NCBI GenBank assembly: GCA_030630935.1
Contig: DAOVMD010000159.1
Span: 1 to 6,979 of the forward strand
Reading direction: 5' to 3'
DNA: 6,979 bases
Origin: Candidatus Mcinerneyibacteriota bacterium
GTDB taxonomy: Bacteria; AUK180; JAQVHJ01
Of this stretch, positions 289-3,705 are shown piece by piece (positions within the stretch are counted from its first letter, which is position 1; every line of letters starts with the position of its first letter). A program made the position numbers and the translations under genes. The notes beneath the pieces are model-generated. The model did no database searches and was not told the DNA's origin. It worked only from the letters and a program-made list of their open reading frames with translations.

Positions 289-444
289 TTTTGCACTAAT
301 TATTATGCTGCATTTCTTTAGAGCAATATTTCTTAGTATAAAATATTAATTATCCTTAATTAACAAATGAAGGCAAATCCTTTGAATTGGTTGAATATAA
401 TTCTTCGATATAGTCAGGGAAGGAATTTATTAACTTAATTAAAA

Positions 445-497
445 CCTTCACTGCGCTCAGAGATTGCTTCAGTCACTACGTTCCATCGCAATGACAA
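445..497 (-). repeat. Degenerate copy of a dispersed intergenic repeat
   Basis: Read on the minus strand it begins TTGTCATTGCGATGGAACG, continues TAGTGACTGAAGCAATCTC and ends in GAGCGCAGTGAAGG. It closely matches, from memory, the repeat of form CATTGCGAGGAACGAAG / TGACGAAGCAATCTC found many times in the intergenic regions of several phyla. Compared with that form it carries two extra T's (in GATGGAAC and GACTGAAG), which suggests a decayed copy. It also has an internal near-repeat, TCACTGCGCTC versus TCACTACGTTC on the + strand. Confidence 0.6.
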
Positions 498-528
498 ATA
501 ATATCATTACTTTATCAAACATCTGAAT

Positions 529-543: not shown

Positions 544-567
544 CTTTATAAAACACTTTAACAATTT

Positions 568-626
568 AACTATCCTAACTCTCGCACACTTGAACGTTTT
601 ATTAACACTTGAACTATTGAACTATT
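568..626 (+). repeat. Left arm of a 59-base imperfect inverted repeat flanking the protease gene
   Basis: The reverse complement of 2511-2569 aligns to this segment without gaps over 59 bases with about seven mismatches. Shared blocks include CGCACACTT, TTTTATTAAC and AACTATTGAACTATT. With one gap, similarity extends outward to about 556 here and 2580 on the other side. The inner end overlaps the protease gene: its TAG stop (622-624 on the minus strand) is made of repeat sequence. No transposase is present, so this is a dispersed-repeat or MITE-like arm rather than a recognised insertion sequence. Confidence 0.75.
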
Positions 627-634
627 TAACTATT
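611..634 (+). repeat. Tandem octamer (GAACTATT, GAACTATT, TAACTATT)
   Basis: Two exact octamers (611-618, 619-626) and a one-mismatch third (627-634) run from the intergenic repeat into the protease reading frame, where they supply the last few codons and the stop. A separate 10-base direct repeat, ACACTTGAAC, occurs at 586-595 and 605-614 in the same arm. Confidence 0.7.
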
Positions 635-2436
635 CCAATCTTACCTGTTTGTTCGAGTCCATTTTCATCAAAGATATAAAAGACATAAATCCCTGCAGCG
701 ATCTTTTTTCCGGCCACATTTTCAAGGACCCAGTCAAAGGAAGTACTGTCATCTTCATTAATATATTCAAAAATCAACTGTCCGGAAACAGTGAAGATTT
801 GTAAAGTACAATCAGGAGTTAGTTTATTAAATGTAATTTTACCATCTTCAATTGCTTTTACAGGATTTGGATAGACTTGTACTTTTGGAATCTCGTCATC
901 AATTGGGATTGTCCCGGTAGAAGTACCTGTTACAACGTACAAGAAAACATCATTACCGTTAATTGTTGAAGTAGGGGTATCGCTAGATTTATAAATAGCC
1001 CCGGGTGTTTGAGTAGAATAATTTGAACCTGCAGCAGTATAATCTTCGATCCAGAATTTGTTAACGGTTCCAATTGTAGCAGTTCCGGAATCCCCAAAAC
1101 TATTAGGATAGAATTCACCATTAGCCAGGTCATATATTTTCAATGTATAAGTATCTCCCGGGCTTGTTGATATCAAATCGGTAATATCTAAGATAACATC
1201 GTGAGAAGGATATGGCTGTATACCACTTCTGTTATACCTATCATCGAATTCCTTATTTAATGCCGGATTTGCTCTTGAAATAGTCCGCAGCAGATCTCCT
1301 CTTGCATTATGAGAGATATTAATTACAGCCAGGTATTCAGGTGAATAATTATTCCTGTCATCAAAAATGAAGACCCATTGATAAGCAAGATCAAATAAAG
1401 CTTCGTATGATAACCAGTAAAATCCATCATTAACATTTTCCCAGGAATATATCCCTGCACCCCAGGAATTGGCAACCTTAAAAGCTCCGTAAGTATTAGG
1501 ATTAGCATTCTCAGTATAGGGACCGTAGTTATCATCATAACCCACAAAAGTATTTGCATGATTAGTTGTTACAGAATTATAGGTGTCGTCAGTGAGAAGG
1601 TCATTCGAATCGAAATTTGAATATTCCCCTGCATCTATAACAATACTTACTAATTTACCTGAGCTCAGGATTGTTTTTATATTATTTAATACGTTTGCTT
1701 TATCTGTATCATCAAGGTAAATATAATATACGGGTTGTTTTACACTTCTCCATGGTGGGGCGTCTCTGAAAGCTGCTTCAGACGGCCAAGTCGTTGAATC
1801 GGAATCGTCATACGGCATTTTATCCCAGGTACAGCAGCCGATTTTATCTATTAGTTCCATCGCATCTCCGGCAGATGACCCTGAATCATATCCCGAATTA
1901 ATCTGATGGTAAACGAAATCAGGAGAAAATATCTTTGTATGATAACTTGCAGGAGTAGGTTCATTATTCCCACCGCCCCAGAGCCATGTCGCGCCGGATA
2001 GATTCCAACCTTGTTCTTGAGCTTCTTGAAATGTTTTCATATAATAAGCTATTGCCCAGCAGGTACAAGACCCTTCACCCGCCTGGTTCCCAATTGGGGG
2101 GAAAGCATTTGATGTTGAGTTATCAAAGGAGACAGGAGCTCTTGTTTTTCCTTTAAGGTTCGCTCTAATAATAACCTTTCCATTCTTTAATAATTCAGCA
2201 TACTCTCCTTCACGTAGAGGGGCAAAACCCGTACCTAAACCATTGAATTTAATATTATAATTTTTCCCGCGTTCATAAACTCCAAGAGAATCTTTCATCT
2301 GCTGAATCTGGTCAGAAGTGAAATTTGTATATTCAATCTCGAGACCGTTAATTTTTACAACCTTGACTTCTGCAAATGAAACAGTAATAATAATTAGGGA
2401 TAAAAATATAGTCATAATGAGTTTTAATCTTCTCAT
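622..2436 (-). CDS. Secreted papain-family (C1A-like) cysteine protease with C-terminal sorting domain
   Basis: This 604-residue protein starts with a signal peptide (basic MRRLK, hydrophobic 6-20, likely cleavage after V-S-F-A at 22). The peptidase domain spans about 110-360. It contains P-P-I-G-N-Q (Gln118, the oxyanion position), S-C-T-C-W-A with catalytic Cys126 before Trp, N-H-A-N-T-F-V-G-Y with His293, and K-V-A-N-S-W-G with Asn323, so the papain triad is complete. Residues 22-105 may form a propeptide. Residues 365-510 look beta-rich and end in D-S-G-T-x-x-I-G-T-x-x-x-F-W-I, loosely like a P-type domain (uncertain). Residues 518-604 match the type A sorting tail of secreted FCB-group proteins: V-Y-P-N-P-V, then G-K-K-I-A-A-G-I-Y, ending G-K-I-G-I-V-K. 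ATG 2436 is chosen because GGAGG lies 5 bases upstream and the signal peptide begins there; the frame stays open to 2520, beyond the promoter. G+C is visibly higher than in the next gene. It probably degrades extracellular protein; the substrate is unknown. Confidence 0.88.
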   Translation of the reverse strand: MRRLKLIMTIFLSLIIITVSFAEVKVVKINGLEIEYTNFTSDQIQQMKDSLGVYERGKNYNIKFNGLGTGFAPLREGEYAELLKNGKVIIRANLKGKTRAPVSFDNSTSNAFPPIGNQAGEGSCTCWAIAYYMKTFQEAQEQGWNLSGATWLWGGGNNEPTPASYHTKIFSPDFVYHQINSGYDSGSSAGDAMELIDKIGCCTWDKMPYDDSDSTTWPSEAAFRDAPPWRSVKQPVYYIYLDDTDKANVLNNIKTILSSGKLVSIVIDAGEYSNFDSNDLLTDDTYNSVTTNHANTFVGYDDNYGPYTENANPNTYGAFKVANSWGAGIYSWENVNDGFYWLSYEALFDLAYQWVFIFDDRNNYSPEYLAVINISHNARGDLLRTISRANPALNKEFDDRYNRSGIQPYPSHDVILDITDLISTSPGDTYTLKIYDLANGEFYPNSFGDSGTATIGTVNKFWIEDYTAAGSNYSTQTPGAIYKSSDTPTSTINGNDVFLYVVTGTSTGTIPIDDEIPKVQVYPNPVKAIEDGKITFNKLTPDCTLQIFTVSGQLIFEYINEDDSTSFDWVLENVAGKKIAAGIYVFYIFDENGLEQTGKIGIVK

Positions 2437-2441
2437 CTTCT

Positions 2442-2446
2442 CCTCC
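2442..2446 (-). promoter_or_regulatory. Shine-Dalgarno site fixing the protease start
   Basis: Minus-strand GGAGG, within AAAGGAGGAGAAG, lies five bases before the ATG at 2436. This decides the start over the in-frame ATG at 2520, which would place 28 extra residues ahead of an intact signal peptide and inside the repeat. Confidence 0.85.
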
Positions 2447-2468
2447 TTTTTTGATTCGATACAAAATA

Positions 2469-2497
2469 AGTATAACATTTTTTCTTTAAAAATGCAA
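2469..2497 (-). promoter_or_regulatory. Sigma-70-type promoter with extended -10 for the protease gene
   Basis: On the minus strand TTGCAT (2497-2492) is followed after exactly 17 bases by TATACT (2474-2469). A TG one base upstream of the -10 gives TGTTATACT, an extended -10. Transcription should start near 2462, leaving about 25 bases of leader with the Shine-Dalgarno site. The promoter lies just inside the right inverted-repeat arm, so promoter and gene are enclosed together. Confidence 0.6.
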
Positions 2498-2510
2498 ATG
2501 AAAAAAAGAA

Positions 2511-2569
2511 AATAGTTCAATAGTTGAAGAGTTAATAAAATGTTTAAGTGTGCGGGAGTTGAGATAGTT
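2511..2569 (-). repeat. Right arm of the inverted repeat flanking the protease gene
   Basis: This is the inverted partner of 568-626, with the same 59-base length and about seven differences. On the + strand it begins AATAGTTCAATAGTTGAAG and includes AAGTGTGCGGGAGTT. It lies 14 bases upstream of the protease -35 box and contains no gene. The arms are about 1.88 kb apart and together enclose promoter, leader and nearly the whole coding sequence. Confidence 0.75.
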
Positions 2570-2589
2570 CAATTTGTTTAATTCTGTTA

Positions 2590-2686: not shown

Positions 2687-2715
2687 TTGACCTTAAATCG
2701 ATATTATGTTATAAT
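2687..2715 (+). promoter_or_regulatory. Near-consensus sigma-70 promoter of the interrupted gene
   Basis: TTGACC (2687-2692) is followed by a 17-base spacer and a perfect TATAAT (2710-2715). Transcription would start near 2722, only about 18 bases before the ATG at 2740. The Shine-Dalgarno AGGGG (2731-2735) would lie within that short leader. Confidence 0.7.
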
Positions 2716-2739: not shown

Positions 2740-3705
2740 ATGAAAGCAAAACTAATTTTTATGTTTTCAATTACTATTTTCTTTATATTTATAAATCAAG
2801 CTTTTTCAACTGATACAAATATTGATATTAATAAAGTTGAATGGACAAAGGAAAATCTTAATATTCTTAAAAAAGTTGATCTTGAAATGGTAGAAAAATT
2901 CTTTAACAAATATATAAGTAAAAATAGTGATATTCTAAGAACAAATATTGGGGAATATATTTTTATAGATCTTAATAATGATGATAAATTAGAATTAGTT
3001 ATTACAACTGATGTCAGCGGGAGAGCTTTTTTTTAAATTGAAGTTATTCATAGGGAATCAGAAAATGATTATCATCGTGAATTTTTAGGTGGATTCATGG
3101 AGGTAGATCTTCAAAGTAAAATTGTTGATTTAGATAATAATGGTCAAAAAGAAATAATAATTACTAACCTTATTACAGAATATCGAGGTTGTGGGATATA
3201 TGCTGTATGGAATGCAATATATAAAATTGAAAATGGAGTATATATTCAATCGGATTCAGATTTTCCTGAATATTATACTAATATCTTTTTACCTGAAATT
3301 GAGAAGGAAATTAATGATATAAATAATAAAAAGATATTTGTAAGTAATAAGTTAAAAAGGGGAGATGAAAAAGTATTATATCGATATTATTTAAATAATT
3401 CCAATCAAATTCCTGATAAAGATGATAGGGAGCTGGATATAGTCGAGAGAGAAATGATTTTAAGTTTTTATTATCTCCCTTATGATAAGGTCTATAGAAT
3501 AACAAATATTAATTCTAAGGCTGGATTAGAAAGAGCAATCAAGTGGGCCAATTCAAATAATATTATACTCAGGAAAAACTCATTAATTGTGTTTCAAGAT
3601 ATAGGTGATAAAGATTCAATTATCCAAGTTGAGAGATTGTCAGAAGATAAAAATAAAGAGATATCAATAAAAGCAAAGAAAATTCTTGGAAAAATTAATA
3701 ATTAG
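2740..3705 (+). pseudogene. Secreted calcium-loop/HEAT-like protein interrupted by one in-frame stop
   Basis: One frame runs from ATG 2740 (AGGGG 4 bases upstream) to TAG 3703-3705, 321 codons broken only by TAA at 3034-3036 (codon 99). Both sides look like one protein. Residues 1-23 form a signal peptide ending near Q-A-F-S. D-L-N-N-D-D-K-L-E-L-V-I before the stop and D-L-D-N-N-G-Q-K-E-I-I-I after it are matching calcium-loop or FG-GAP/VCBS-like repeats. The 20 codons directly after the stop continue sensibly (IEVIHRESEN...). The last 50 residues or so (R-K-N-S-L-I-V-F-Q-D-I-G-D-K-D-S to K-I-L-G-K-I) read as a HEAT-like repeat pair. The stop follows a run of eight T's, but slippage cannot explain it because the frame is unchanged downstream; a substitution fits (TAT or CAA to TAA). 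AGGTGG (3087-3092) before ATG 3097 could allow re-initiation without a signal peptide. Function unknown. A sequencing error is possible. Confidence 0.7.

Follow-up and report, generated by a model that had tools for sequence, protein, structure and literature searches.

The locus analyzed here raises the question of whether a gene lying between inverted repeats is a mobile or invertible cassette or simply sits between two copies of a common dispersed sequence. The window, by which we mean the whole 6,979-nucleotide stretch of DNA studied, is the entire contig C263 of a 3.16-Mb MAG of a Candidatus Mcinerneyibacteriota bacterium (471 contigs), and a sequence-only reading had described it as carrying a secreted-protease transcription unit between two 59-base arms. 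Our analyses indicate that, very probably, each arm is an independent copy of an intergenic repeat that is specific to this genome and present in high copy number, and that the protease gene between them is chromosomal and was inherited vertically. The features concerned are:

241–528, no strand assigned: further dispersed-repeat material in the left gap; stretches like it were noted by eye in other gaps of the genome
529–631, plus strand: left repeat block, its extent defined by recurrent k-mers, holding a mini-hairpin and a degenerate core
563–627, plus strand: left arm, composed of one repeat unit of about 52 nt and the core that follows (TTAACACTTGAACTATTGAACTATTTAAC); the protease stop codon overlaps its 3′ end
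622–2436, minus strand: papain-like (C1) cysteine protease of 604 aa with a C-terminal T9SS type A sorting domain, assigned by matches to TIGR04183 and PDB 3ois
About 2469–2498, minus strand: promoter-like site of the protease (TTTGCA-18-TATACT or TTGCAT-17-TATACT), between the right arm and the gene
2501–2574, minus strand: right repeat block, its extent defined by recurrent k-mers
2510–2574, minus strand: right arm, a second copy of the left arm's repeat unit, its 3′ end facing the protease promoter
2687–2715, plus strand: strong promoter-like site beyond the right block, assigned to the divergent gene at 2740 (TTGACC-17-TATAAT)

The arm pair itself is real. Positions 563–627 and the reverse complement of 2510–2574 align without gaps over 65 nt with 8 mismatches (88%); a recount of the 59-nt version, for which about seven mismatches had been claimed, gave exactly 7, and the weak outward similarity noted before was also seen. 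The pair forms the longest inverted repeat of the window (the runner-up has 29 nt at 76%), and its longest identical run is 16 nt. Each arm is more similar to a copy elsewhere than to its partner: the best other copy of the left arm (C96:5967) and that of the right arm (C46:4078) both show 91% identity versus the 88% between the arms. RNA folding of the arms was no better than that of shuffled sequences. Within the left block, the mini-hairpin module (GCATGCAAAGCATGC) occupies 529–543 and the degenerate core 552–573, while the left gap contains an AATGA-type stretch at about 248–285 (scan match at 248–274) and, at about 445–505 on the reverse strand, a stretch that we take to be of the TGTCATTGCGA...GAAGCAATCTC type.

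The gene between the arms was identified by residues 181–348, which span the catalytic region and match the solved C1 protease 3ois_A (E 4e-4), and by residues 521–600, which match the type A sorting domain TIGR04183 at 26 bits (cut-off 23); the protein had no match in Pfam at 1e-3. The description of a complete unit enclosed by the repeat stood only in part. The stretch from the right arm to the gene does contain the promoter-like site, an AGGAGG resembling an RBS and the ATG (2436), the 3′ end of the arm stopping about 11 nt short of the promoter-like −35 hexamer, but the stop codon (622–624) is inside the left arm; the protease thus runs a few bases into the repeat and the enclosure is not clean. 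The G+C counts offered as a contrast (25 in 1801–1860 and 11 in 2941–3000) are exact, but each is the extreme of its gene: overall, the protease gene has 37.2% G+C and the genes to its right 24.6, 33.8, 32.5 and 30.0%. The gap 2437–2739 shows the layout promoter, block, promoter, which was found in other divergent gaps as well. At 2740–3705, two ORFs in the same frame are split by an in-frame TAA (3034–3036), representing either one stop-interrupted gene or a sequencing error.

The sequence-only reading had proposed searching the arm against the whole genome and its relatives. In the genome, the 65-nt left arm matched at least 100 places. The conserved part of the repeat is an AT-rich core of 22–23 nt (AACACTTGAACTATTGAACTATC), and scanning the 3.16-Mb MAG with the 22-nt core at up to 3 mismatches returned 198 places (96 forward and 102 reverse), while the same scan with a reversed-control core returned 0 matches. 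That reading's other possibility, in which the gene happens to lie between copies of a common dispersed repeat, is borne out by this abundance and by the almost exclusively intergenic location of the units examined. Arrays of the repeat were also seen at contig ends in four stretches (L097, L104, L105 and L112, on contigs C53, C217, C294 and C432, respectively); more copies are therefore likely to exist than were counted, and the repeat is a probable cause of some of the breaks in the assembly.

The units occur in arrays of 1–9, and many copies form direct arrays of ~53-nt units, one of them with a higher-order period of 106 nt. Core-to-core distances fall mostly into two classes, 50–54 and 66–70 nt. 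The shorter class contains recurring spacers of about 30 nt between the cores, whereas the longer one mostly has an additional module, either CATGC[A/G]AAGCATG or a ACGTGCCATGGCACGT-type palindrome. With up to 3 mismatches allowed, the palindrome pattern was matched 96 times, a figure in which sites hit on both strands are included, and it varies by paired changes (ACGTGC..GCACGT, ACATGC..GCATGT, ATGTGC..GCACAT and ACTTGC..GCAAGT). The repeat is one component of a mosaic of modules found between genes, among them a hairpin with compensatory changes. A CRISPR array was considered for this layout and rejected, as the spacers are neither unique nor unrelated but recur between loci, with a median spacer-to-spacer similarity across loci of 0.80 versus 0.48 for shuffled sequences.

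Among known systems, the layout is closest to the STAR elements of Staphylococcus aureus, with BOX next. STAR elements are interspersed intergenic direct repeats in which a short motif alternates with recurring spacers of ~40 bp, giving a unit of ~50 nt; a locus contains 1–7 motifs, and the mechanism of their spread is not known (PMC3532100). The present repeat shares the short core, the direct arrays, the recurring spacers and the intergenic location. However, its core is unrelated to the STAR consensus, a GC-rich 14-mer (T(G/A/T)TGTTG(G/T)GGCCC(C/A); PMC3532100), making it a new family of the STAR kind rather than a member, and it differs further in its two spacing classes, its extra hairpin modules and its lineage. 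The BOX elements of Streptococcus pneumoniae are modular and mostly noncoding, and contain a variable number of internal tandem units (PMC3049150); the present repeat, likened to them by layout, is likewise small, interspersed, modular and mostly noncoding, and its tandem units also vary in number. Unlike BOX elements, which have the defined end modules boxA and boxC around the boxB units, terminal inverted repeats and a stable fold (PMC3049150), its arms do not fold and no fixed ends were seen by inspection of 10 printed loci. BIME/REP elements form intergenic mosaics of a palindromic module and other motifs in more than 100 copies (PMC2817692, PMC8266576). The present repeat resembles them in its palindromic module within a mosaic, its copy number above 100 and its intergenic location, but the palindromic unit is confined to an optional hairpin module, placed as a spacer in direct arrays, and does not form alternating REPs.

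We studied the placement of the repeat in the window and 69 further stretches of the genome (268 kb in total), with genes defined by simple ORF calls. Nearly all units (223 of 227) lie outside ORFs, and the array gaps for which both genes were seen comprise 19 divergent, 21 tandem and 7 convergent cases. A preference for arrays to face promoters appeared strong at first but was gone in the tandem gaps, where arrays facing a gene start and a gene stop were equally common (10:10). The 3′ end of the array was the end closer to the gene boundary in 33 of 45 arrays, a tendency rather than a rule. In printed gaps, the blocks were seen by eye to end just before promoter-like sequences, as they do in the window, and we infer that the repeats fill the dispensable part of the gaps, with selection acting on the promoters. 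The arrangement around the protease gene has a counterpart on contig C135, where arrays at 367–505 (plus strand) and 2764–2978 (minus strand) face inward and flank a pair of ORFs (97 and 643 aa). In the other cases among the stretches studied in which uniformly oriented arrays lie on either side of a single ORF (L031, L034, L038 and L042, the ORF in L034 possibly being spurious), the arrays run in the same direction.

The protease is present in the nearest relative, G001, which belongs to the same family (62% identity), and in four further genomes of the class (G002–G005, 49–58%), while none of 20 relatives searched, these five among them, yielded the repeat. The sequence-only reading had named, as evidence against a cassette, the repeat occurring at many intergenic sites in random orientation with no link to gene presence and the protease locus being syntenic in relatives lacking the flanks. 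The first is what we found, the repeat occupying many intergenic sites on both strands with no link to the presence of a gene; the second could not be used, as the gene order around the protease differs in G001. Exact scans with the core of 84,980 GTDB species and of IMG/VR, as well as a distant search of plasmids, gave no match in sets that may leave out this genome and its very near relatives. The Rfam families had no match in the window and five array loci, and a literature search with the letters of the repeat found no paper. The nearest named record reached through the protease is an unclassified MAG, “bacterium isolate STE_202.” Repeated 14-mers numbered 15 in 162 kb of G001 and 353 in 163 kb of this genome, the latter in stretches picked around arrays. 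G001 contains a different short repeat, GAATCACGAATCACG (stretches L137–L156). More distant relatives of the protease (37–44%) were observed in Bathyarchaeota MAGs (L086–L092), with matches ending at about residue 421–517 and not covering the T9SS tail.

The conserved core and spacing could also mean that the units are functional, as protein-binding or nucleoid-organizing arrays or as insulators between promoters, and are kept by selection rather than spread neutrally. The sharpness of the spacing classes, of which the 50–54 nt one corresponds to about five turns of DNA, the blocks adjoining promoter-like sites in many gaps and the pairing retained in the hairpin module by changes on both sides are consistent with such a role. 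We nevertheless consider it unlikely: the tandem gaps show no preference for gene starts, the repeat is absent from all relatives tested, the arms fold no better than shuffles, and copying of whole units would also produce spacing classes. Somewhat less probable is a REP-like nature of the repeats, with a Y1 (TnpA_REP/RAYT) transposase spreading them, as the palindromic module with compensatory changes and the three Y1_Tnp genes in the genome might suggest. RAYT genes are usually flanked by their own REPs. Here, no module of the repeat was found in the flanks (up to ~1.5 kb) of the three Y1 genes (L093–L095), in which the repeat differs from REP/BIME systems with a RAYT, and the palindrome is missing from most core spacers. 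One of the Y1 transposase ORFs (L093, 740–1207) has a C-terminal part consisting of short tandem repeats (ELQRYRSY / TKISLLQS). We regard as similarly doubtful a lineage-specific modular intergenic element, possibly a phased binding array, that fills gaps as far as the promoters and stop codons, has its 3′ end gene-ward and its cores about five helical turns apart, and was spread by a novel copying mechanism.

As its arms are two of about 200 intergenic copies, the protease gene very probably does not form a cassette that moves or flips, and the proposal of a repeat-mobilized or invertible unit is left without support. Movement of the gene by its inverted repeats, in the manner of a compound transposon or a MITE pair, would fit a whole gene with its promoter lying between inverted copies, its somewhat higher G+C than that of the neighbors and the altered gene order in G001. 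Such an origin is nonetheless highly improbable: five relatives have the protease without the arm, each arm has closer copies elsewhere, one arm contains the stop codon, and no transposase or recombinase family of Pfam matched the main proteins of the window. The combination expected of a composite transposon or an invertible cassette, a recombinase and a dedicated pair of near-identical arms, was thus not found. Least probable of all is a segment, 627–2510, flipped by site-specific or homologous recombination between the arms to alter protease expression, as the inverted arms might allow, since the promoter lies inside the segment and a flip would not switch the protease, the arms share no identical run beyond 16 nt, about 200 other copies exist, and the only two tyrosine recombinases of the genome (PF00589) are encoded outside the window.

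Under the favored explanation, independent copies of a dispersed repeat, units would spread between sites by some copying process, as suggested by the pattern of similarity among the copies, and their number within an array would change by slippage or recombination, the higher-order period making such growth plausible. Purifying selection would confine the units to gene gaps, such that blocks would end just short of promoters and stop codons. As arrays tend to have their 3′ end gene-ward, inward arms can arise without any cassette wherever blocks lie on both sides of a gene, and this tendency could explain the inward arms seen at some loci, such as that on C135. The single ORFs flanked by same-direction arrays count against this explanation in that the inward pair is not evidently typical. 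Both the neutrality of the repeat and its mode of spread are what we infer from these patterns.

The repeat represents a new, lineage-specific family within a known kind of element, and the apparent protease cassette is a product of the repeat background. An uncultured bacterial lineage has its own STAR/BOX-like repeat population, of about 200 cores and further modules, adding one more example to the problem of how small interspersed repeats disperse when no transposase is apparent.
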